From Straminergon stramineum (taxonomy: Eukaryota > Streptophyta > Bryopsida > Hypnales > Calliergonaceae): a stretch of DNA of 64,000 nt. A model generated the notes under the pieces. It saw nothing but the letters and a program-made list of their open reading frames with translations. It ran no database searches and had not been told where the DNA came from. Positions 11,647 to 27,512 of the stretch are shown here, piece after piece; within the stretch, counting starts at the first letter, position 1, and each line of letters begins with the position of its first letter. Where the stretch lies: positions 6,081,001 to 6,145,000 of the forward strand of contig OY987266.1 of NCBI GenBank assembly GCA_963920665.1. Direction: 5' to 3'. A program made the translations under genes and the position numbers.

Positions 11647-13084
11647 ATATGAATCATGTTCAAAAATCTAAAATTTTCAAAATAGAAATACATTATAGTG
11701 TAGGACATTGTGGTGTAAGGAAAATTTTCCATGTCACTCAATATTTTGAAATATGATTATAGATCTTCAACTTCAAACTTCACTCAAATGTTGTTTTTTT
11801 AGAAATTTTTCAAAATTTCAAGTGGAGTAGAAACTTGTCGTCATAAAGATTTGTTATTAGGTTCAAAATAGCAGAGGGACTTTGTTGTAGAAGTACTTTG
11901 TATTTAATCTAAAATATCCTAAAGAATAATAGACCTACCTTCAAAAGTCCCTTTCTCCTAAATCCCTATCCTATAACTCCCACTATGCCTTAGAAATTGC
12001 CTCACCTAACTTTGACCTAGCATAACTAATGGATAGATTCTACAAACAACTTGAAACTTTGTCACATTGTAAATCAACTATCCAACTAATTGCATACCAA
12101 TTTTCATACCAATCTAAGATACTGCTCAACTTTCATGGACATTTATCAACTATTGACTTTTTGCCCTTCTTGAAATACCCTAAACTAGCATAGATGACTT
12201 CGACATGGCATATCTTTTGGAGAGTTTTTCCAAATGCTTTGAAATTTTTCTTCAAAGTATATCAACTTTTCACATACCAAATTTCACCCTAATCTAAGAT
12301 ATTGTTCAACTTTGGTGGACATTCCCCAACATGACTTGCTTAGTCATGTTTTTTCTACAACCAGTTGTAATTTTGTGCATTGCTCATAGATCTTACATTC
12401 ATAGAAGTCAAGATTTTGATATAAAGTAAAGTGTGAGTCATGAAAGATACCCTCCAAGTTTCATAGCCATAACACAAACACTCAATAAGATCCAAGTTCC
12501 TCAATACACCCTCCTTGGCTACCTTAGATTTCAAACACCTCTACTTTCTAGCCTCACATCTCCTTCTCTATAATAGATTTAGATCTCAAATTTGGCATCA
12601 TAGTAAATCAACTTCTCAAAAACTAAGATCCAAAAGCTTACCTTGATCCAACTCTTTATCAAAACACAATACAAAACCCTTCACATAAATGCTTCCTTCA
12701 ATATAAAATCCAATAGTAAAACACAGTTTACACTTCTAAGTGCACACCTCTCAACCACCAAAAACACTAGAGAGAAACAAGGGACTAGCCCTTACCTCTA
12801 AGTAGCCACCACAACCTAAGATGGCTAGCCATCGGCTAATCCTAACTCCACTAACCCTAATATTAATCACTAACCAACTAGTTATCTACACATAACTAAC
12901 AAGGTAAACCAACAATCAAGCTCCCAACACTAAACAATTTCCAGTACTAACTACTCCTTTCTAACAATGAAAAATTCCCATTTCAACTATTAGACAATCC
13001 ACATCATAATATAGCACTTCAAAAGCTTTATTTTGTTAGTTTTTGCTCACAAGAAAAATAAATTATTATGAAAGTTAAAATTAA
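11647..13084. repeat. AT-rich intergenic DNA with a diverged internal duplication
   Basis: No gene is visible. Segments around 12010-12180 and 12181-12345 are diverged tandem copies of about 170 bp. Compare CAATCTAAGATACTGCTCAAC near 12112 with CTAATCTAAGATATTGTTCAAC near 12290, each followed by TTTC/GATGGACATT-like text. Function unknown. Confidence 0.55.
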
Positions 13085-13092
13085 ACTTTTAG
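13085..13092. repeat. Left target-site duplication of the hAT element (ACTTTTAG)
   Basis: Eight bases identical to those at 26816-26823, immediately outside the left terminus. Confidence 0.85.
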
Positions 13093-13290
13093 TAGGGTTG
13101 TCATATCGGACAGGTCAGGGTGATCGGATGGGACGGACGGATGGGCAAACCGGACCAGATGGACAAACAGTTTGGACAATCCGGACACCTTTCATTTTTT
13201 GAAATTTTCGAATTGGCAAGTCGCTTCCACGCTGGAATCAGGGCGTGGACGTTAGGGCACGGACATCATCATCAAGGTGGGGACTATACT
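13093..13290 (+). promoter_or_regulatory. hAT left terminus and GGAC-rich subterminal region
   Basis: It begins with the terminal repeat TAGGGTTGTCATA. GGAC words follow densely (CGGACAGG, GGGACGGACGG, CGGACCAG, TTTGGACAATCCGGACACC), then GGGCGTGGAC, GGGCACGGAC and GGTGGGGAC. hAT transposases are known to bind short subterminal repeats, so these are candidate binding sites; that role is inferred. The same motif type recurs at 18050-18290, 23830-23945 and, inverted, at 26610-26790. Confidence 0.65.
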
Positions 13291-13379
13291 AGGCGCAGAT
13301 AGATTTGAAAGGGTAGGGATGTTGCAATTTATTTCGAATGAAGTAGTTCTACTTTTCTAGGTTCATGTTTAAGGCTTTA

Positions 13380-13805
13380 TTTTGGAAAATAGTGGCTACA
13401 AGTGTTTCAAATTCATATCCAATACAAAGAGACTTCTTTGTTGTCATCTTCAAAAGGGTTGGTTTACGAATTTGAGGGTACAATTGTACAAGGGTTTGGA
13501 AATCAAATCATATACAAGTTATGTCATTTTCGGTTTCAAGTTCAATGAGTTTGTTTCCATTGTTGGATACTAGAATGGTTTGGATTGAAATTCAGGTACG
13601 TTTTTGGAGGTTGTACTTGAAGTGTTCATTTCTGTAAATAGAAGCTCAAACGGTTTGGAGTTCACATCAAATGCGTTTGATATTTGTTGTCCATCTACAT
13701 AAAAGATTTTTTTTGGAAATGGGCACTACATTGCTAGTTTGCTAGAAGGGTTTGGATTTAAATCTAAATATCTAATACAGATTTTTTTTCTTGGTTTCCT
13801 TCGAA
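13380..13805 (+). repeat. Degenerate tandem array, about 85-90 bp unit (left)
   Basis: Loosely repeated text of the form TGGCTACAAG-TTTGGAAATCAAATC-ATACAAGTTATG recurs near 13388, 13480, 13560, 13640 and 13720. It matches the array at 18600-19290 in the same orientation. Open frames here are short and not convincing. Confidence 0.6.
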
Positions 13806-13817
13806 GGGTTTAGGGTT

Positions 13818-13990
13818 TTCAACCCTTTGGTGCCCAAGGCACCAAAACTTGGTTTTCATAAAACTTTGAAGTTCAATACATCCTAACCAAGTTGCTATTT
13901 GGAGTGGTTAATATTTTTGAAAAGTTCTTGAAGTCTAGTTTTACCACCAAAAGTCTGTTTTATTAAAAAGAAATATAGTGATTTTTCCAT
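13818..13990. mobile_element. Fragment of a TTAA-type inverted-repeat element
   Basis: From TTCAACCCTTTGGTGCCCAAGGCACC onward this resembles the right end of copy A (11646 reading downwards on the minus strand), including a CTTTGAAGTT block and GAAGTCTAGTTTT. The TTAA has become TCAA, and no matching second end is seen. Confidence 0.55.
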
Positions 13991-14565
13991 TCTAGATTCT
14001 ATTGTTCAACATAACTACATTCACGAATGTCATCTACATGCATGGCAAATGCAATAATTTTGCAAATACAATTGGAGACTTCATTATTTCAAATAACCAA
14101 CAACATTTTGAAATTTCAAGCATTGTTCAATACAATAACAAGTTCACAACACAATGAATCTATACTTTCAAGATACACCTCTTCTTCCATTGGTTATCTT
14201 AGACCCTACTTCTTGTTCTTGTAGATCTTCATTACTTCATGTTTCAATTGGTGCAATTGTCTTGAACTCATGATGAATGAAGATCTACAGATGGTGTTGG
14301 GTGCCCTTCAATTGTTGAAACGACTTGATCTGTAGACTTTTTGTATACCTGGATCCCCTAATGCAGCATTTCGAATGACCTCATCATCATCTATTGGTGC
14401 CTCATCACAATCAGAGTCGTCTTCATCATCACCGCCTTCACCAGTTCCACTTTCATCTTCTCCATTGTCACCGTATATGGTCCATTGGCCCTCTACTTCC
14501 GAGTTCTCATTTCAAAGCTCCAGAGTTATTTCACCATGCCTACAATTGCGTTTAAACCTCTTGTG

Positions 14566-17500
14566 TCATTGAGCTCTAGGGTCCTCTGCATCAGAATTTA
14601 TAGTGGGGCCTCCTTGTACTTGAGGAACGACATACGCTGGAGTGGACAAAGTTTGGCCTAGAACATACGTATTCAAGAATGGCTCTATCACCACGTTCGA
14701 TTCTCTGACCCCAATTCCTAAGAGAGGGCGTTTAGAAGGCCTAGAGGATGATGCTTCGTTGTTGTTTCGTCCACCTCTAATACCATGGCCTCCAATCCCT
14801 GCACGACCCCTTATTCCTCCACAGACAGCAGTCCTTCCACGTCCTTGTTGATATTCACCCATGGTGTAGTGAACTATGGGTCGAAAGGCAGTAGGGGGTC
14901 TACCACCCATTGTAATATTTGAAATGCTTTGAGGCATCAATTCAACATTTCCCACTAAGCCTAGCCCTTTTTGGAAAGGTCGACGGTTTACACTCAAAGT
15001 TGCAGGAGAAGAAGGGTTAAGGGAATGCTGCACCGGTGTATTCCGGTTAGTAAGAACAGTACACATTGCAACCGATGGGGGTATACGGGCTTCGTCTTCA
15101 AGCGGGTCAGTAAACCCCAAAACATCATTGGGATTTAAACGTTCAGGGTCAAAATGCCTTACTCCCACTACAGGAACCCCCATGACATTTCTTGCGATCG
15201 ATCGTGCCATTCTTGTATTTCCAATGTTTTGGCCATGGCGTCCTTCAACAACCTTGTTGCTATTGTGGCCACCCACTCCTCTAGGCCCCCTACTGCCATC
15301 ACGATGGCAAACAGATCCTTCAATATTCTAAGTTGCATTGTTCCTCAGATTCCCACCGCCATTTCCATTTCCCCCTTCGTTTTCCAGAAGGAAGTCGTTG
15401 TCGTTGTTGAAGGGAACATTATCATCATCAATGTCCACTACGTTTGGGTCATCACTCTCCAATGATGATGACAAAGGCTGCACTTCCGGGATGACTGGAT
15501 TTTGAGGGCCAAGGGGGGGGAGGACTTTGGCTAGGATTGACTCCCTAAGGGCCCTAGTGACTAGGGAGGACTTCCTCTTCCACTTCATCATCATCTCCAT
15601 AGTAATTTCTAGCTTCCTCGAGGTGATTGGCCCCCGCCCTCTACAAATGTAGATTTGGTTAGTACCCTTGGGGTACTCAGTTTGCTTCCGCATCAGCCTC
15701 TTCCTCTTCTTCAGCTACCAACACGTCAAATTCATGATTGTGTTCAGCTACTGGAATGGGGCCAAGGGCATCTAGATCAGAATCCTCCAATAAGATATTA
15801 GCATCGTACCAACAAATTGGATCAGCCCCTGGTCTCTGCTAAAGTACATGGCTATTGGTATAAATATATATGAATGAATCAGCCTTCTTGGGGGCTAATC
15901 GATTCCGAACCTTGTTGTGGACAAAAGAATACATACTCCAATTCCTTTCACATGAGCATACTAAACACATCAATGATAGAATACGCACGGCAATCTTAGA
16001 TAGTGCTCAATCTCCAACCCTATGCCACCATTGGTGGAGAAGCATCTGTGTTGCTCTGATGTCGGGCATCTCAGCAGCACTATATGGCCCCGTGCCCTCC
16101 TCGAATTCTGTTAATTCCACTAGCACGTCGTTAAACTCTACACCCACTACATTTTCCATTTTGCGGATGACCCAATACAATGCATGGAGGGCAATTCCAT
16201 CAGCCCTAAGCATAGCATTATCCAAGAGATACAGATTCAAAAGGGCCCCGGCGTAGTGAACATCCGTAAAAACCATGTCCCACCTTGTTTTGAAAGACTC
16301 CTCCATGGTGGTGGCTATGTCATTTCGTAGATTGAAGGGTGGCTTTCTTAAAGAAAACACATGGGCCCTCAAATTGTGCATTACGAGCCATGCCCAAACC
16401 ATAGTTAGTTCTTGGCCATCAAAAGTGCGCAATGCCTTCAACACGTCTTCAGTCATGTGCACATAATTCACACATCGTTGTCAAAAGCCCACATCTTCGA
16501 TAGTTGACACCACATTACATGCAGCTGTAGTTGCTTGCTTTTCATTTTGTTTGTTTCGCAAACCATCAAAGTAATTCTGAACGCGCGCATGGTCTTTTAA
16601 CCGCAATAGTACTCCTCGAAGTTTCTTCAGTCGATGCAACATGAAGAAATTACAAGCAAAGCAGTTTTTGTTTGGCACTATGAGTAGAAGGGTCGGACTT
16701 AACTCCTGGAAAACTAATATGGTCATGTGTTGGTTTTGAATATACTGGCACAATCTTCTTGCCCTTTGAATTAAATCTTTAAATTCTACTACTTTAGCCC
16801 AATCTTCCAATATGAGATCCAAGGCATGTGCCATACAGCCCTACTTGAAAATGTGCGGATACGTGCGAACAATATTGTCCAATGCCCCAAGCATATTCGC
16901 TGCATTATCCATACAAACTTGCATGACATGTTTCAAACCCACTTTCTCAATGAATACTTTCATCTGGTCTGTTATATAGCGCATGGACTTCCTTTGTCCA
17001 CTAGTGTCAATGGCCCCCAAGAATACATAACCGGTAGGGCACGACATCATCACATTCATTAGGGGCCTCCGGTTCACGTCATCCCAGCCATCAGTGCATA
17101 TTGTCACCTTGTAATGCTTCACTACAAAACCAACTTTGGTTACTATTTGTTTCTCGATTTGCAACCTCTTAGGTTCAATCAACTTAGTCCTGAATTGATA
17201 ATAAGAAGGTGGACTGTATTCAAACCTTGCCACTGAGGTTGCCCTCACAGCCTCAATGAAGGCTGGATTTCTTGCCACATTAAATGGCACGTTTGCCTCG
17301 TAGAAAAACGATGCCCACTTGTCATCCAACTCTTTCTTCTTTGCAATGTTAAAAGTATCCTTCATGCGTTGTTGAAGTAATGTCCTAGATCTCATGGAAT
17401 TTGATCCAGCGAGACTTTGGAACCTCTGTATTGGGTCATTCCCTTCAGGGAGAGCAACCCCTTCAGCCTGGTTCCCACTAGGGCCCCCTCCCGTCACTTC

Positions 17501-17821
17501 GTTAAGAGTAGATTTGCTTGAACTTGCAATTGGAGTTGCTCTCGATGGACCACTCGGAATTGATTCTCCTTCATACATGTCCTCGGGGCTCAAACGCTAT
17601 AGAACAAAGTTTGCACAATTTGCAAATCGGTGGCGCACAATTCGCTGTGCACTACGACAAATTGACCTCTCCAACTTCATGCCATATCCAAAGTGAGCAA
17701 AAGCGCACTCACGTTTATAGTTGAATGTTGCATTGTAGAAAACATAGCTCGCTTTACTCCCGTTCTCAAAGAAATTATACCACGGTTCCCATTCTTTTGT
17801 TTTCTTTCATTGACCTCCCAT
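14566..17821 (-). pseudogene. hAT transposase, DUF659 type, with dimerisation domain (decayed)
   Basis: One minus-strand frame runs from the ATG at 17821 to about 15690, broken by stops. The N-terminus (KEWEPWYNFFENG...) may be a degenerate BED-finger region. DUF659 lies at about 17250-16770: ICTDGWDDVNRRPLMNV, then GYVFLGAIDTSG and QVCMDNAANMLGALDNI. The C-terminal hAT dimerisation signature is near 15990-15850 (CERNWSMYSFVHNKVRNRL). In-frame stops are TGA near 17809, TAG near 17596, TAG at 16838, TGA near 16478, TGA near 16004 and TAG near 15840; none is TAA. After about 15700 the frame shifts into an acidic then Arg/Gly-rich tail (15693 to 14566). A transposase of this class would cut and paste the element. 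This copy should be inactive unless the stops are bypassed. Confidence 0.9.
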
Positions 17822-18049
17822 TGCATTCACGATGAATGCAAACATGTTCTTGTATGAAGTAGAAGAGGCTATCACACCAAATGAAAAGGACAAAATAATA
17901 GTTAGCACCAATCCACTACTTGAACTGATTTTTACATCACCTCAACAGCAAACCAAGGCCATTTGCCACCAACGTAGACTCACAAGGAGCTCAAAGTGAA
18001 TTGCAATCCAAAATGATGAGGCCAAGATGACAAATGTAGGGAATTCACA

Positions 18050-18290
18050 ATAGTAGGGTTGGCTTTATACCCTGGGAGTGTAGGGGCGCGGACCTATTGT
18101 GAAGGGGCAGGGACGTCAAAAAAAGGAAGGTTTTGTAAAATCCATCATGCTTCCTTCTATCAGGGTGCGGACTTAGGGGGTGCGTAGACGTAGGAGGCGC
18201 GGACTTCTCGTCAGGGCATGGACGTAGGCGGCATGGACTTCCCATGGGGACACGGACATGGAGGTGCGGACGTCCCACTCCTAAGCCATA
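18050..18290 (-). promoter_or_regulatory. GGAC-motif cluster and probable transposase promoter
   Basis: Upstream of the transposase start (minus strand) lie repeated motifs, read on plus: GGGGCGCGGAC, GGGTGCGGAC, GGCGCGGAC, GGGCATGGACG, GGACACGGACATGG and GGTGCGGACGTCCC. On the minus strand a TATA-like GGGTATAAAGCC lies at about 18062-18073, between the cluster and the gene. The plus strand also reads TAGGGTTGGC at 18054, resembling the element's left terminus. Confidence 0.55.
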
Positions 18291-18599
18291 GTGGGGGGGA
18301 AGTCAAATTCGCATTGAACTTGGTCATGGGATTCTTCTTTCCCATGGAGAAGGGAAAGCCATTAATGCAGTCAACCCTTAATTTGAGCTCGGGGAATATC
18401 TACAAGTCAATGGTTGCATCAAGAGGTCCAACCACTTTATGAGTTCAAAGACAATGTATGGAAGCATGTCTCTCCCTTCTTGGGGCTGGACTTCTCCTTC
18501 TTGCCTTCATCAAGCACTTGAGAACTAGGACCCACCCCCCAAAAAGAAGATTTCAGAAAATGAAAATTCACTTGCACACTTCAAGAAAAAAAATCGAAA

Positions 18600-19290
18600 T
18601 TAGATGCTAGAAGTTTTTGGATTTATAACAAAAGACAAGGTACACATTTTCTTAAGTTCAAGTTCAAGGTCGCATTTTCCCAAATAGAAACTAAAAGGGT
18701 TCAAATTATAGAGTTCTAATTGAATGGGTTTATTTTTGGTAATGGGGGCTACAAGGTTTCGGAAATTGGAATTCATATCATTAACGTATTACAATGTATT
18801 CAAATGTAGTTCAAGGATTTATTTTTTTAAATGGAGGCTACAAGGATTTGGAAAAGAAACAAAATGCAAGTTCTAGTGGTTTTGAAGCAAGTTCAAGGCT
18901 TTTGTCTTGTTATTGGATGCTACAAGGGTTTTGATTTCAAATAGAAGTTATGTTTTGTTTAGTTATAGTTGAAGGCTTTATGGTGTTTATAATATTTGTT
19001 CCAAGTATTTAAATTTGAAAATTCAAATCATATACAAGTTAGATGTTATGTGCTTGTACTTCAAGGGCTTCAACTCCTTCAAGTTGAAGTACAGGTTATA
19101 AGGGTTTGGAGATCCCTTCAAATACAAGTTAATATTTCTGGGTTCTATTTCAAGGGTTCATTTGTGTTAATGGAAGATACAAGGATTAGGATTTGGGAAT
19201 TCAAACCAGATACAAGTTATTTTATTTTTGGTTAGGATTAAAGGGTTTACTTCTATAAGTACTACGTAGAGGCTACAGGATTTTGGATAT
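18600..19290 (+). repeat. Degenerate tandem array, about 85-90 bp unit (right)
   Basis: Units marked by GGGGGCTACAAGG, GGAGGCTACAAGG, GGATGCTACAAGGG, AGGTTATAAGGG, GGAAGATACAAGG and AGAGGCTACAGG start near 18745, 18834, 18925, 19093, 19171 and 19269. Each is followed by a TTTGGAAATTCAAATC-like phrase and ATACAAGTTA. It is the same family as 13380-13805. A TTAA-type end fragment (TTCAACCCCTAAAAGCC) follows at 19298. Confidence 0.62.
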
Positions 19291-19843
19291 AGTTATGTTC
19301 AACCCCTAAAAGCCTAACAATGTTTTGGCAATGAAATTTTCCAATGAATCTTCCTATTTTGATATTTTTTTATTTTTTGGAGGTATGGGACTATGGGATA
19401 TATTTGAAATTTTTAATGGAAGCATACAAAAAAGAAGACTACTATGTCTAGGATATTAGGATGTGTGGAATTAATTATAAAAAATATTGACCGTTGGATT
19501 TTTAGATTATAACAATTTTGAATGATCAATTGTGTAGGCAAAAAATGAAGCTTCTACCTTTTGAAGAAGAAGAATTATAAGAAGATGAATAGTGCTTTTT
19601 TCCCGTTGGAAAAAAACTATTTTGGAATCTAAGGCAAATGCAGTACTTTTTAATTTTTAAGAATGAGAAATAAAAATTCTCTCAAATTAACCAAATTGGA
19701 TCCTAATCCAAAATTTTAAATTTATATATCAACATATGCATTTCTTTTAAAATTTAATAATTTATAGCATAATATTTAGAACATTAGCATAATGTTTGGA
19801 AGATTCCAAAAAATTTGGAATCAGTCCAATTATTTTTGTGTTC

Positions 19844-20767
19844 TTAACCCCTAAAGGCCCATGACTATTTTTTCACCAAAAAAGCTCCCAAACTACCATT
19901 TCTAGTACAAGAACCAAATTTTAGAAAAAAAACATTTTTGGACATATATAACTGTAGGATCTTGTAGTACTCTAGTTTGAGAACATGTGGAAAAAATTTC
20001 AGAAATTTCCACCGTGTAGATTGCAAGAAATTAGCATTTGAATTGACAAAAATCCCTTTGGGGGGCCTACAAAAAACCGGGTAGCTGCTCTTCTCAAGGT
20101 CACATTTGTATGAAGAAATTTCCAAAATGGATGTGCGTCTTTAAATTATTTCTTCAAGGCAAATTGGCTACATGCTCAAAAAAATTCAAATTATTTGGAA
20201 TTGTACAATATATAGGGAAAAAATAGTAAGTAGAAAGTAGAGAAGGATTCAAAATACTAAATTGTTAACAATTTTGTTATGGACTTGAAAAATGAAAATC
20301 CCAATGGTAGTAATGTTGCAACAAACAATATACATCCTATGATTTTATTTTTTTCAAAAAATATTGAAAATTGAGTTAAATGAAGGACTTCAAAGTTTAT
20401 TTTAGAGTAGAGAATCCATAACTACCTGCAAACTAAAACATCTCATAACTTTCACCTCATTAATCAAAGTTGAATGATTTAAAGCTTTTTACATACATAT
20501 AAATCTCCCTTAATCAATTTCAAATTTTTATTTTTGAAAAAAGTGATTTTTTTATCTATCCAAGCTGCCCAACTTGGCAAAGAAACCACATATTATATAA
20601 TAACCCTAAACCATATAGTCAAAAGTTATGAAAATTGTTGGGCCTTAAAGCTACTCCTTGACCACATGTGTGAAAATTACAACGCAAAAAATTGGAAATT
20701 TTGCTCGTAGTGAGTTGCCCAAAATATCTATAATGCTAGAAAAACATGTTTGGCCTTTAAGGGTTAA
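19844..20767. mobile_element. TTAA-flanked inverted-repeat element, copy B (916 bp)
   Basis: TTAA at 19844-19847 and 20764-20767 bounds it. The left end is CCCCTAAAGGCCC and the right, read inwards, CCCTTAAAGGCC. The interior closely resembles copy C (55514-56445). Shared phrases include CATTTCTAGTACAAG/CATTTCTAGAACAAG, AAAAAAACATTTTTGGAC and TATTTTAGAGTAGAGAATCC. The only open frame, 19865-20125 minus, is not a recognisable protein. It sits inside the hAT element, so it inserted later. Confidence 0.75.
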
Positions 20768-21549
20768 TGACTTAATCACACCAAATTAAAATTTTAATTC
20801 ATGAACTTCCTCAAAATCCAAATTCCAATTATTTTTTTTTGTGGAACCACTTTTTTTGTGAGAAGTAATGATTAGGGATGTCCAAGAATATCTGTTTGTG
20901 CTAAGTAATGAGTAGGGATGTCCAAGAATATATAGTTTCCATCCCTACTATTTCGTTCATTTTAAAAAAAATTTGTTTGTTCCCATTTTTCTATTACACT
21001 ACATACTAACATACCCTAAATTTTTATTTAAATCTTGGTAATCGGAAAGTATAATAAGCTGATAAACTTATTACTCAACAAGTTCTTAGTTAAGGAATTA
21101 TACATGCATCATGCAAAGGAATTTAACAATTGAATATATGTATTTCATATGCATCGTGTAGTAAAAAATTGGAAAAGTATATAGCATGTTTTCCATGATA
21201 AAATATGCATATCCACAAGTCTTTGTCCAATGCTATTTGTAGTACCGAACTACCGAAGTAGCAATTCTATAAGCATTGGTAATGATAAGTGCCTATTGTA
21301 AGTGTACACACAAAATATGCTTTGCTAATTAGTAATTACCAAACTAGGAAATGCACTCGAATCAATGTTCATTGGACTATTTGCAATGCCACTCGATCCA
21401 ACCTCATTGTTGTGTCTGGCGTGCTAGATGGGAAAATCTTTGCCGCAGCCTAGTTGAAGTCTATGAACCATAGACCGAGTTCTCCTCGTTGGTTTGTCTT
21501 TTTCCAAAATGGCCCTCATAATTTGTGATTGCTTGAGGCTCTCTAGAGC
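20768..21549. other. AT-rich DNA without genes
   Basis: A 28-bp near-perfect direct repeat (AGTAATGATTAGGGATGTCC-type) sits at about 20863 and 20903. From 21360 onward base composition rises as the RING pseudogene is approached. No coding call. Confidence 0.4.
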
Positions 21550-23769
21550 TCAGCATGTATCTAGGCTATGTTGTTCAAGTAGGAAATCTAGCCCTTCGTT
21601 TCTAAAAGTTTCCCTCCACTCAGATTTCGATGATTGAGCAAGCTCCTCGAGGTTGGACATGTCTGGGTCTTCCCCAATACAAACCCCGTTGTCATCGGTG
21701 ACACCAACTCCATCAACGCCCCACAACCATTGTCTAAGGTGAGGTCCAAATTGAAACTTTTTTCCGACCTTGTCCCAATGTCCATTGAAGCATTGGAAGA
21801 AAAAATTCCATTGTCCTTGGCTATGCTTGTCTTTCATCGGAATCAAGTGCTAGCAGACTTAGACAATTTGATCTGTATCAGTCTCCCAACCACATTCAGC
21901 AGCAATCTGTGTCTTGTCCAACAACGTTATTTGCAATTTCCAACTCCACACCAAGTCTGTTCCCCACATTTTAGAGTGATCAGGGGCATTTGTGGAATTG
22001 AATTTCCAATGTGGTGGCATGTATGGGACCAAGCCAAACAACTCATATAAGCGCTCATGGAAAGGAGCCTTGCACAATGCGCATCGACGACAGAGAATCA
22101 TAGAACTGATGAGGCAAAATGGATGGTACAAGTGGTTGCACGTGCCCAAGTGCATTCCACCTTCAGGGCCAAATGGATTCATACAAATGGGACATATGGT
22201 CCCGTCGTGCACAAAACTTGAAGGATTTGGCCACTCCAACAACAACTTCCCTTTGTAGTCGACCTTCAATCCAAACTGGTTTTTGTAATCCCAATTGTGT
22301 TGGGACCGATCAATGATTGTTTTTCCACTATCAAGCTCAATGGTTGCCATGTTGGGATTGAAAAGATCATCCACAAGGGCCTAGGAAGTCAAGCCAAACA
22401 CCCTTTCTTGATTGTGTTGATTGTAGCAGTGGTCCATTTTCTTGAACTTTGCTACTAGTTGTTGGGTTTTGTCGACAATGAACACACATGCCAACTTCCA
22501 TTGGTAGTATTGCTCCACCAAGGCATGCAAACAACTATGTAATTTTTGTTTCTCGACTCACAAGTCGTTGAGCTCAAAGTTGTTGTCCATAACCATGGCC
22601 CCAACTTCAATTTGCATTGGTACGTTGGTGGTGGCGAGTAATTCGCCAAAGGACAATGAATCCTCTTCTATAGACATGGCAGCACCACCGTGCACATCTT
22701 GCACCAGAATCTACGAATCGTGAGGAGGTCCTTGTGCATGTCCTCGTGGATCCTAACCTTCATTCATCATTTGTGTTGCTTGTAGAGCTCGTCGAAGCTC
22801 TCCTATGTCACATGCTTGCTAAACAATTATTTCGTCCTTGCGCTTGATTTCTTCCCTAAACTAGCCCACATCTTCATACACAGAATGCATTTCATCATCT
22901 CTGTCTTGTAACTGCACCCTCAAGCTCTATATGGTGTCTGCAACAGCCATGACATCAACAACTCCAATAGTTGGTTCATTAGGTGCTTGGAACTGCACCC
23001 TAACAACTCCAACCACTGGTTCCTCAGAGCCATGGAACTGCACATGAGCATCTTGCTCTAGAAGTTGTCCAAGAAGTGCACACTAAGCCTTCTACTTTTG
23101 TGCACATTGTTGTCCTCTGTGGTTTAATACCACTGGTGTATGAGCGCCATCAAAGTCATCATCCATAGAAGAGTTTGGTGTCTCACATGTGTCGGGCGGC
23201 TCAATACATGTACTGATCCTACCGAGCCCTCCTTCGGGATAACTCATAACCTCCCTTGCAATTATACCATTAGCTGGTGTTGGTACTTTGATACTAGATG
23301 GTGTGCCCTTCAAGGTGGACCAATCCACCCGCTTGTTCAATCTCACTTGTGCATGTACACCTCATGCAATGAAAAGGTGGACTTCATTCCTTTTTATGGT
23401 GGGCATGTCATACAACACTTGATATACTTCGATACATAGTTGTTTGAAGGCCTCATCGATGCAGTATTTCAAGTTGGCTTTATGGAACTGGCAGTGGTAG
23501 TTGTGCCGGTCTTCCGGGAAGGCCTTGTCAATGTGGCACCATTTGATGTAATTGGCACAAGTCTCAAAACTCCACGAGTCAGGCACTTCATTCCAACCCC
23601 TAAATGCAAGTTTGTGGGGGTTTTGAAGTATGTGTAATCTCTTTCGATGTTTGTTTCTTGGCCTTTGTCGGGTATGGTTTCTTTCTTTTTTGTTAGTTCT
23701 CGGTGGTGTCTCCATGGTAGAAAAATCGGGCGGAAATTCAGTATGTAAATATGAACGACTTTGCATGAT
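21550..23769 (-). pseudogene. RING-H2 finger protein, hAT cargo gene (decayed by stops)
   Basis: A single minus-strand frame can be followed without a frameshift from about 23769 (MQSRSYL) or the internal Met in METPPRTNKK down to 21550, about 740 codons. A RING-H2 finger lies at about 22194-22071: CPIC, then C-x-H-x2-H-x2-C (CNHLYHPFC) and CALC. Upstream is a helical stretch (FREEIKRKDEII, LRRALQATQMM) that could be a coiled coil. RING proteins usually act as E3 ubiquitin ligases; here that is only family inference. Twelve in-frame stops break it: 9 TAG, 2 TGA and 1 TAA by my reading. It is divergent from the kinase across a shared motif-rich spacer. I do not recognise a close named homologue. 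Confidence 0.72.
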
Positions 23770-23829
23770 GCCAACGATCAGCTCAATGAAGAGGTGGAGG
23801 ATTTGGAATATGCAAGGTGGGGACGAATG

Positions 23830-23945
23830 GGGCGGGGATGGCCTTATATGGGGTCGGAGTGCCCTTGTTGGGGTGCGGACGTGAATCGTTAGGGTAGGGA
23901 CAAGCCAGGGCGAGGACGTGGGAGGGGCAGGGACTATAAAACCCA
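23830..23945. promoter_or_regulatory. Bidirectional GGAC-motif promoter between RING and kinase genes
   Basis: Repeated motifs GGGGTGCGGACGTG, GGGTAGGGACAAG, GGGCGAGGACGTGG and GGGGCAGGGAC end in TATAAA at 23935-23940, about 175 bp upstream of the kinase ATG (24114). The minus-strand RING gene starts on the other side. This matches the clusters at 13093-13290, 18050-18290 and 26610-26790. A shared control or transposase-binding module is inferred. Confidence 0.55.
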
Positions 23946-24113
23946 CCTAAAGCCCTCACTTTTCCTTGCCAAGTCTACACCCTATGCCTCACACCTTTGT
24001 TTGCGCAAGCGACCTTTGGACGTGAGTTTGGTGGGTGATCAGGCTTGGCTCACATATAGCACCCGGTTTTTTTTATTTTCTCCAAAGCTTTGGTGGTTCA
24101 AAAATATTGTACA

Positions 24114-25552
24114 ATGGCAAGAGAAGGGAGTGGGTCATTAGGTCAATACCTGGTGTTTGTAGACTTGGATGCAATTCGTAAGGTGGTACCTCCAGCCACA
24201 AACATGTTAGTGGCTTCAAGGTCATCCAATCCCTCATCATCATCTAGCAAGTCAAAGTGCAAAAATCAACCCAATCCTGATATGCCCCCCCCCCCCCCCC
24301 TATGAATATGTGCTCGAGGCTAGAGCAATAGGGGTAAATTTTTACACAAAACAAAGCTCTAGAATGATGTCCAAAGAATATGTGAACTACAACGAAGAAG
24401 GATACCACAAGTTGACTGCTGAAGTGCGGTGAGAATTGGAGACCAGATTTAGAGCATCCGAGCAATTCAACAATTATCAAGATTATTGGTTGCACTCTGA
24501 GTGGTTGGATAAACAATTGTTGCAGCTGACCACCAATATTGTGGGGAATTGGTGTTATCACACAAAGAAATAGGAGGATGATAGTGATTGGGACACGCAT
24601 GATAAGGAGTTTGCTTCGAGATTGATCGAGATTCAGAAGTTCTCCCAACATTATTCTTCCTCGCGTAGAAAGAAACAAGCACCATGGAAAGCGATGCTTG
24701 AAGACCAAATACGAGTTCATTGCATGAGCGGAACATTCAAGTGGCTGGAAAGTTGCGTGAAAGTGAATCCCATGCCGAACCAAACCATGACTGGATCATA
24801 TGGGACTGTGAAGAAGCTGGTGCTCACGAGACTACAAAGCATTCCCAGTTGGATTTGCTTCACCAGGAAGACTTTGAAGACCTCAAATGAGAAGGAGAAG
24901 CACCAAGCTATTGTGAGTGAGGCAAGGGGGTGTCCAGTGATACATCCTCGTATCATAAGACTTGCGTACATCCATCCCAAAACAATGGAAGGCTACACGC
25001 TATGGTGGAATGGAGGGTCTTTAATTTCTTTCTTGGCCAAGTGCAACTCAAAAGTGAGCGAATCATTGGATGTGGATGACATCACGAGACAACATAATAC
25101 GGGGTTGACGCAAGAAAAACTCAATTGGGTTGCAACTTATCGTAGAAAACGTGTGAACGTGGCTCTATCATTGCTTGTCATAGTGGAAAAATGCCATGAA
25201 GCACAATATTTACACAATGACATTATTCCATCCAACGTTTTGCTCCATTTTGATGAATGGAAAGAGAACACAATGTACATAGGGATTTGTGATTGGGGGC
25301 TTTCTAGCCGAGTTGTAGAGAAGGAGCCATCAAGGTATGGTTATCTAACCATGGAGTCAAATTTGGAAAGAAGAATGGGATTCCAAATATTTTACGAACA
25401 AAAATCCAGAGCAATATCAGAATTTGAGGACTAAGCTGTTGAGCCTCTAGAAAGTAGATGTAGGCAAGAGGGCATCTATGCTTGATGTTCTAGACACTTT
25501 GAGGAAGGCACCTCACCGTTGGACTATGCTTGATTGTTGTTATCGTACATAG
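24114..25552 (+). pseudogene. Protein-kinase-like cargo gene (decayed)
   Basis: From ATG 24114 (MAREGSGSLGQYL) the frame enters a run of 16 C at 24285-24300, which shifts it. It then continues through a TGA near 24431 and a TAG at 24571. Kinase features follow: glycine loop GSYGTV (about 24796), a candidate lysine in FTRKTLK, a catalytic loop HNDIIPSN (usual form HRDxxxxN) and DWG in place of DFG (ICDWGLSSR, about 25290). A later frame carries KRASMLDVLDTL, like the last kinase subdomain, ending at a TAG at 25550-25552. The activation segment through subdomain X appears deleted near 25370-25400, with a frame change. The intact ancestor was probably a soluble Ser/Thr- or Tyr-type kinase; substrate unknown. 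It is divergent from the RING gene within the hAT element. Confidence 0.83.
24285..24300 (+). repeat. Poly-C tract (16 C) inside the kinase reading frame
   Basis: The run encodes a proline stretch and puts the downstream kinase frame out of register with the upstream ATG. Homopolymers of this length are prone to slippage and sequencing error. Confidence 0.9.
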
Positions 25553-26164
25553 TATATTGTTTGTACTTTTTGAGGTTTAGTATGTGCCTATGTGGCAATT
25601 TTATAGGAAGACCACACTTTTGTGCTTAGAAGAGCATCAAGCATGTGTATTTCGCGGTTGCTGCACATTTCATACATAAAGACAAGGACGTATGGTAAAA
25701 ATATTGTAATACAGAATTTGGTCTTTCTTCCATCATGGCAATTGTATGACTTTTGTGAATTTATGAATATTGAGTAAGCAAACAATTTTGAATGTGAAGG
25801 AGCATGAGCATATGGTAGATGTTGTCGGCACCTTAAAATTTTGAAAGAATTGTAGACCGTAGCCCGTAGGGTGCACGAAGGAATGACTTTGAAATAAATA
25901 ATATTCTTCAAATCTTCAATATAAAAATGAATTGGAAAGAAATCGTATCGTAATTACAAAATAAGAGATGATCCTGAGAAATGTAAAGATTTTGCATCAT
26001 TGTGTGATTTCAATGTTCTGAACAATACATCTAGCTTGTATATTAGAACATTGTATTCTACTGTACTAATTGATTCGAAGAATATGGATTCTTTATCAAG
26101 TGAATTCCAAAGTGTTTTAATTCACCAAGCTCTTGATAGAAAACAGGTTTGAGTGAGGCAGTGA
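25553..26164. other. Non-coding interior of the hAT element
   Basis: I see no gene. An open frame on the minus strand (25588-25911) has no recognisable features. Confidence 0.4.
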
Positions 26165-26610
26165 GCAAGTCAACAAGGGCCCCCCCTCCTTAACTTTGAA
26201 ATTGAACAAGGCCCCCTTTCATTCTCCAAAAAATTACTTGAATTTGGGTCCAATTTAAAAAAATGTGGTTCACGTGAACAAGGGTCCCCCCTTATTGGAA
26301 GTTATTGCTTATAAATTCAAAAGGAATTAGTATTTTTTTGCCTACAATGCAAAAAAATATGGTTCAATTGAACGAGGGCCCCTTTATTGCTTCTTAATTG
26401 CGAATGAATTAAATTCATTCGCCTTCAAGGGAAAAAAATACGAGTCCATGGAGCATGGTTGATGGTTCTTTTCCTTCACTTTTAAATTCACAAGGAATTA
26501 GTTCTACTTGGCCCCAATGAAAAAAAAATATGGTTCGGTTGTACAAGGACCCACTTCATTCAAAAATTAATTAATTCAATTTGGCTCCAATTTTTTTTTA
26601 AAATGGTCTG
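26165..26610. repeat. Degenerate tandem array near the right end of the hAT element
   Basis: A phrase of the form GGTTCAATTGAACAAGGGCCCC followed by an A-rich linker and AAAGGAATTAGT recurs near 26170, 26205, 26275, 26365 and 26535. Spacing is irregular, roughly 35-170 bp. It occupies the position that the 85-90 bp array has at the left end but is a different sequence. Confidence 0.5.
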
Positions 26611-26815
26611 CACCCCAACTACTTCCGTCCGCGCCCCAACTCAATTCTGTCCCCACCTTGACCAAAGTCCACGCCCTGGATCCTCCTTGGTAGCCACATG
26701 GCATCAAAGTGGCAGCCAAATCACCTATTTTTTCAATTAAAGAAATTCAACTTAGTGTTGACCACATCAGACGGGCAAGACCTCTATTGGACGGACAGCT
26801 AGTATGACAACTGTG
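26611..26815 (-). promoter_or_regulatory. hAT right terminus and inverted GGAC-rich subterminal region
   Basis: Read inwards on the minus strand it begins CACAGTTGTCATA and continues through GCTGTCCGTCC. Then come CAGGGCGTGGAC, TCAAGGTGGGGAC, GGGGCGCGGACGG and GGGGTGCAGACC. The middle two are exact inverted counterparts of left-end motifs at nearly the same distance from the terminus (136 versus 146 bp for the first). Confidence 0.7.
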
Positions 26816-26823
26816 ACTTTTAG
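26816..26823. repeat. Right target-site duplication of the hAT element (ACTTTTAG)
   Basis: Identical to 13085-13092. Confidence 0.85.
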
Positions 26824-27512
26824 GAAATAAAACTCAAGGTATTGACATAAATTGGATGGTGTGCCATTTTTGGATAAATTACATCATATATATTCAAACA
26901 ACTCAAAATGTCTTGAACTTAAGTCAATGACGTGGATACAACATTAATAAAGTTGCACACAATTAATCAAATGAAAATCATCCATTCTTCAATATGCACA
27001 AAGCCTTGGTTGACTATCGAAAGGATAAAGTTAACCCGTTAACCTTAGAAGGACATACCCTCATTGACCAAGGTAGTCACCAAAATACTATAATTATTAG
27101 ACCATTGATAGATTCATTTATGTTTTTGCAATTGAGTCATCTATCTTGCCTTTTAGATCTATAGCATCTTCATAAACATTTGGTTAAAAAATGAATAATT
27201 TAGTAAACATTATGAGAGTGGTAATGAATTTGGTTTAAAACCATCAAGACTAGTTTTGTGGATGTGAATTATACTTCCAATGAAAAAAGTACAACATAAT
27301 TAGGATAAAAAAACTGAAGAGCTAGGAAACTAAATTAGCCACATCCAAAACCACTATCTTTTTTGGTTCTACCATCTCCTATGGTCATATTCCAAAAAGA
27401 TAAAATTTAATGAATTTATTAATTACCTCAAGAGAATTTTGATCCAAGTTTTTTGTAATTTTTCAACACTCAAGTATTACTTTGTGAATTTTCAAAGTTT
27501 AAAGTTTAAAGT
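26824..27512. other. AT-rich intergenic DNA
   Basis: No coding frame, RNA gene or element boundary is visible. Confidence 0.4.

Follow-up and report, generated by a model that had tools for sequence, protein, structure and literature searches.

The window considered here (the whole 64,000-nucleotide stretch of Straminergon stramineum contig OY987266.1, corresponding to C4:6081001-6145000 of a 326-Mb genome) contains at 13093-26815 a hAT insertion of 13,723 bp which, to judge from its sequence and that of its relatives, is very probably a degenerate copy from a large lineage of autonomous hAT elements, the core genes of which encode a transposase of the DUF659/hAT type, a RING-H2 protein and a divergent kinase. 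hAT elements usually encode little besides transposase and are generally seen as simple transposons. An initial annotation had treated the RING and kinase genes as cargo belonging to the element and to a larger family; that membership is borne out, and the word cargo undersells a pair that recurs with the transposase throughout the family. The two genes look like working transposon parts rather than accidental cargo, since relatives usually keep the three genes together and carry one motif both at the ends of the element and at the gene starts. The features of the window element are as follows.

13085-13092, no strand: target-site duplication, left copy, ACTTTTAG, exact
13093-13107, plus strand: left terminal inverted repeat, reading TAGGGTTGTCATA, like the ends of six other elements
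13241-13284, plus strand: motif cluster at the left end, three sites (loose motif scan)
14569-17596, minus strand: remains of the hAT/DUF659 transposase gene, with stop codons; DUF659 in 16841-17596 (1.8e-25)
18084-18223, plus strand: motif cluster upstream of the transposase gene, four sites; the relative L045 has an array at the equivalent place
21550-23778, minus strand: remains of the RING-H2 gene, a single frame interrupted by 13 stops, counting one that closes the stretch; its RING domain falls within 21859-22380
23816-23934, plus strand: motif cluster in the RING/kinase intergenic interval (genes head-to-head), five sites followed by TATAAAA
24114-25552, plus strand: remains of the divergent kinase gene, limits judged by eye; 24574-25434 is open (286 amino acids)
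26627-26676, minus strand: motif cluster at the right end, inverted, three sites
26801-26815, minus strand: right terminal inverted repeat, its reverse complement reading CACAGTTGTCATA
26816-26823, no strand: target-site duplication, right copy, ACTTTTAG, exact

The association of the three genes was assessed by genome-wide frame searches in which 150 of 708 RING candidates, 150 of 695 DUF659 candidates and 136 of 679 kinase candidates were scored. By RING identity the scored copies were divided into subfamilies A (82-100%, six copies with that of the window included), B (69-77%, 77 copies) and C (46-48%, 49 copies) and an intermediate group (50-63%, 18 copies), the cut-offs, like the limits set for gene and motif places, being chosen after the tables had been viewed. 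A kinase lies within 30 kb of the scored RING match in 6/6 A copies (on the opposite strand), 75/77 B, 14/18 intermediate and 10/49 C copies, and a scored transposase in 4/6, 75/77, 7/18 and 23/49 respectively; both lie within that distance in 73 of the 77 B copies. When the place was restricted to the order, strand and spacing seen in the window, 70 B copies had the kinase there, 70 the transposase and 63 both, compared with a mean of 0.06 and a maximum of 1 out of 77 in 1000 trials with rotated kinase positions as a control. The layout common to A and B has the kinase head-to-head with RING at a median of approximately 3 kb and the transposase downstream on RING's strand, at a median of 5.5 kb in A and 7.6 kb in B. 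Subfamily C, with identities to the window of 46-48% for RING, 33-36% for the kinase and about 45% for the transposase, has the kinase on the other side of RING (4.1-5.1 kb away in eight of ten pairs, -28 and 16 kb in the others) and on the opposite strand in nine of the ten, whilst the transposase is on RING's strand in 22 of 23 cases at a median of 14.7 kb. Starting from 31 C-type kinase matches, a scored RING or transposase was found no more than 20 kb away for 15, and both for six; one of the 15 stands beside B-type genes. Long open reading frames persist, the kinase reaching 552 amino acids without stops in 11 B matches and RING 777 amino acids in six B and 903 in 11 C matches, and 58 of the 77 B RING matches contain no stop.

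A search with the ends for further copies bearing the same gene order, as the initial annotation had proposed, led to the same picture. The left-end search yielded 42 rows, reduced to 40 places by the removal of two second-piece rows, so that each place counts once (one further second-piece row, from another search, was also removed before counting). The transposase follows in 20 of the 40 places and RING and kinase both follow in 21; 19 of the 20 places with transposase have RING and kinase in like order, the exception being C1:45189897, where the nearest RING and kinase matches are approximately 31-36 kb off and beyond the limits set. Ten left-end loci were examined over 20 kb each, and two of them align along the window element at around 84-92% identity with the order of RING and kinase kept. 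The copy at C5:21117532 measures 14,914 bp and has an 8/8 duplication; that at C11:11136738 has lost part of its transposase, and its outermost left end was not found. The right end was not seen in three of the ten 20-kb loci. Five others, with both ends read, are 4.3-9.9 kb long and have no transposase, RING or kinase match. Such same-ended copies without RING or kinase had been named beforehand as a possible refutation of the two genes' membership, an objection that was dropped because the transposase is equally absent from them. The deletion derivatives (C1:20122618, C1:37075512, C4:23314493, C4:26333157 and C8:16420882) have a common rebuilt interior, two pieces of which match window 18.2-19.2 kb and two 26.2-26.7 kb, and so form a non-autonomous family of their own.

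The second line of evidence is the 10-bp CpG-containing motif GGGCGCGGAC, which forms arrays at the ends, before the transposase gene and between the RING and kinase genes. A loose version of it has 19 sites in the window, of which 17 are inside the element (two of these as single sites), compared with a mean of 0.92 and a maximum of 3 in 200 Markov simulations of the element; as the loose motif was derived from the window itself this count is partly built in, and the independent test is provided by the genome-wide pattern and the relatives. L045, a member of subfamily B, has a 33-bp array of approximately nine motif copies ahead of its transposase. The double site GGGCGCGGACN{3,12}GGGYGYGGAC occurs 457 times in the genome and its reversed control not at all, and chance GC-richness was dropped as an explanation on that account. 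Of the 100 double sites listed, 90 stand close to scored genes of the family: 61 precede the transposase, 15 lie in the RING/kinase interval, 12 belong to the left end and two are past the kinase. Of the remaining ten, one adjoins a family right end. The spacing of the motif alternates between 14 and 19 bp before the B transposase gene (L045 2880-3172) but is approximately 21 bp at many B left-end and RING/kinase sites.

That the window carries a hAT insertion is evident from the 8-bp duplication and the short terminal inverted repeats, and the structural marks reported in the initial annotation were all recovered: the duplication is exact on both sides, the terminal repeats share the 9-bp core GTTGTCATA where it had been placed, and two subterminal motifs are inverted at similar distances from the ends, GGGCGTGGAC at 13241 (+) and 26667 (-), i.e. 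about 148 and 139 bp inside, and AGGTGGGGAC at 13275 (+) and 26649 (-). The terminal sequences of other copies resemble YARGGTTGTCATACC, and in the six other elements with both ends read the duplication agreed at 8/8 positions in three and at 7/8, 6/8 and 2/8 in one each. Empty sites with a single ACTTTTAG, for which the initial annotation had proposed a search, were sought by joining the left flank, one ACTTTTAG and the right flank; 40 of 234 candidates were scored and, besides the window flanks, 38 of 38 places span the junction at 73-79% identity. The element was thus inserted into another dispersed repeat, represented at window 12943-13092 and 26824-26973 and by at least 38 further copies.

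The identity of each gene rests on the window together with its relatives. DUF659 is the only transposase domain above its Pfam cut-off in the window, and both DUF659 and Dimer_Tnp_hAT are found in the 741-amino-acid open frame of L045 (4.8e-36 and 1.2e-8), so that the C-terminal dimerisation domain of a hAT transposase is known through this relative. An N-terminal BED zinc finger gave no Pfam match in L045; a CxxC...H...C pattern is recognised by eye only. The predicted RING-H2 frame was upheld in that all eight zinc-ligand positions (C3H2C3) are present in the window, the C5 copy and L042, though the Pfam RING models are below their cut-offs in 21859-22380 (-) (best E 1.6e-4) and in the relatives likewise; a comparison with PDB matched the protein to RING finger protein 24 (9.9e-5). 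The frame described as a divergent kinase is just over the Pkinase cut-off (33.2 bits against 31.7, in 24574-25434 (+)), and the catalytic-loop Asp and Asn of HNDxxPSN and the metal-binding Asp of DWG are present in both the window and L049. The usual catalytic-loop lysine is replaced, DWG is lost in the C11 copy and the catalytic pattern is unmatched in the C5 copy. The window gene is also approximately 156 bp shorter than two other copies, at 25356/25357. The PDB comparison gave a weak similarity to VRK1 (E 0.004), single-sequence structure prediction of the window frame a mean predicted local distance difference test score (pLDDT) of 34, and a search for a viral relative of the kinase five stretches fitting a pattern, none of which was confirmed.

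The copy in the window is dead. When three copies were compared (only two in part of the transposase), one or more of them had a stop at 50 codon positions; another copy reads CAG, CAA or CGA at 30 of these, TGG at seven and some other codon at 11, and two are stops throughout. Non-coding positions at C or G differ in 17-42% of CG, 22-31% of CHG and 8-10% of CHH contexts, a CG/CHG bias that points to decay of methylated DNA, its CHG component suggesting a plant host. Subfamily B has moved recently, since L045 and L046 differ at just 2.8% of synonymous sites over 333 codons. Between the A and B (L045) transposases the synonymous divergence (dS) is 0.76-0.94 and the ratio of non-synonymous to synonymous divergence (dN/dS) 0.18-0.29, in stretches of 119-251 codons, and the A-B protein identity of RING and kinase is about that of the transposase. 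The identities of the three proteins correlate over 81 loci (r 0.85-0.89), which is mostly a subfamily effect. Within subfamily A the dN/dS of RING and kinase stretches ranges from 0.2 to 0.64, and simulations incorporating the observed CG/CHG-biased decay gave averages of 0.57-0.62 for these genes. Selection inside A is not claimed as proof, as only three of ten comparisons depart from this null (RING against C11, the longer kinase stretch against C5 and the middle transposase stretch against C5, with 5, 3 and 3 out of 400 simulations giving values no higher than that observed).

An important consideration is whether the RING and kinase genes could be host genes captured once and since carried as functionless passengers, as in a Pack-hAT element that had retained its transposase. 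This seems improbable. It would accommodate the dN/dS values of subfamily A, mostly within simulated decay, and the broken state of the A copies examined, but passengers would have decayed or been lost, whereas the set is found again in A, B, the intermediate group and C, at identities that fall as low as 33-48%; its open frames are long, and the gene order differs in C. It is more improbable still that the two genes arrived in another transposon that landed inside the hAT. Motif clusters do border both the whole element and the portion with RING and kinase, but no separate ends, such as the initial annotation had listed as a refutation, were seen inside the element, the alignments to two other copies continuing through both genes with short gaps only; moreover 63 of the 77 B copies hold the three genes at fixed spacing, and B left ends are 3.1-3.9 kb from DUF659 matches. 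Several observations nevertheless weigh against a conserved three-gene lineage with working parts. Seven of the ten dN/dS comparisons inside A are indistinguishable from simulated decay, and between A and B the nucleotide-level evidence of selection covers the transposase only, RING and kinase being compared by protein identity. Only ten of the 49 scored C RING matches have a scored kinase within 30 kb, in part because just 150, 150 and 136 of some 700 candidates each were scored and C is under-counted, and C elements are known here from their genes and not from their ends. The C5 copy has no exact motif site at its left end, and copy C4:23314493 has none anywhere.

If the three genes do form a working set, the arrangement of the motif suggests how they might be coordinated. 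A factor encoded by the element, most simply the transposase via its zinc-finger-like N-terminus, would bind the arrays, and the end-marking sites would at the same time place the transposase and RING/kinase genes under joint control; we consider such binding and joint switching probable. The transposase is proposed as the binder because BED fingers act in this way at the ends of Hermes, a hAT element with subterminal repeats and BED fingers (PMC10368747). RING, as a ubiquitin ligase, and the kinase might possibly target host silencing or the transposase itself, so aiding the element's expression and movement, an idea put forward tentatively. A somewhat stronger contender, though short of an even chance, accepts the gene set as described and supposes that a host factor binds the arrays and that RING and kinase only tune how much transposase there is or how active it is (to prevent over-transposition, for example) and play no part in silencing. 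The presence of arrays at gene starts besides the ends would suit a host factor, and no result links RING or kinase to silencing; however, the motif pair is largely confined to the family (90 of the 100 listed sites), which an element-coded binder explains more easily, without this being decisive.

VANDAL elements are Mutator-like elements (MULEs). According to PMC5735166, their non-coding parts contain tandem arrays of short target motifs, one location being upstream of the transposase gene VANA21, and these arrays are the targets of the element-coded anti-silencing protein VANC, which has DUF1985/DUF287 domains. The present family is alike in being a DNA transposon with further genes and with non-coding motif arrays, among them one upstream of the transposase gene, and unlike in belonging to another transposon type and in having, in place of DUF1985/DUF287, a RING protein and a kinase known from sequence alone. 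Neither DUF1985 nor DUF287 had a Pfam match in ten window frames or four frames of relatives. It is conceivable, if rather doubtful, that the hAT lineage has evolved a counter-silencing or licensing module for itself, in which a RING ligase and kinase are co-switched with the transposase by the end-marking CpG motif, as an independent counterpart of VANDAL/VANC. Pack-TYPE hAT elements, as described in PMC8903248, likewise enclose non-transposase genes within hAT ends; they are non-autonomous and carry captured gene fragments, whereas in the present family one conserved set accompanies the transposase across deep divergence (the search for a host source gene covered the scored hits). With Ac/Ds, Hermes and Tol2 the family shares the 8-bp duplication, short terminal repeats, DUF659 and hAT dimerisation domains and repeated motifs inside the ends, and differs in its size of about 14-15 kb, its two further conserved genes and the repetition of the end motifs at internal gene starts. 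A word search of the open-access literature found no description of a hAT element with such a gene set among the titles and abstract openings listed, which does not prove novelty. A high-copy hAT lineage in which RING and kinase genes have stayed with the transposase through deep divergence, and in which a single motif occurs at ends and gene starts, makes self-regulation of DNA transposons or resistance to host silencing directly testable.

Two further observations concern the distribution of copies. Contig C11 (17.4 Mb, approximately 5% of the genome) holds 12 of the 18 intermediate RING copies, often stop-ridden, compared with four of the 77 B copies, suggesting that this contig retains old copies in the way that a sex chromosome, or one with little recombination, would. 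Some gene matches come in pairs of identical score. One pair, at C10:1.93 Mb and 7.57 Mb, is separated by 5.6 Mb on the same strand, and the others (C11:17.319/17.360, C8:22.798/22.831 and C10:19.317/19.339 Mb) are in opposite orientation at distances of 22-41 kb; such pairs represent recent duplications, palindromes or assembly effects.

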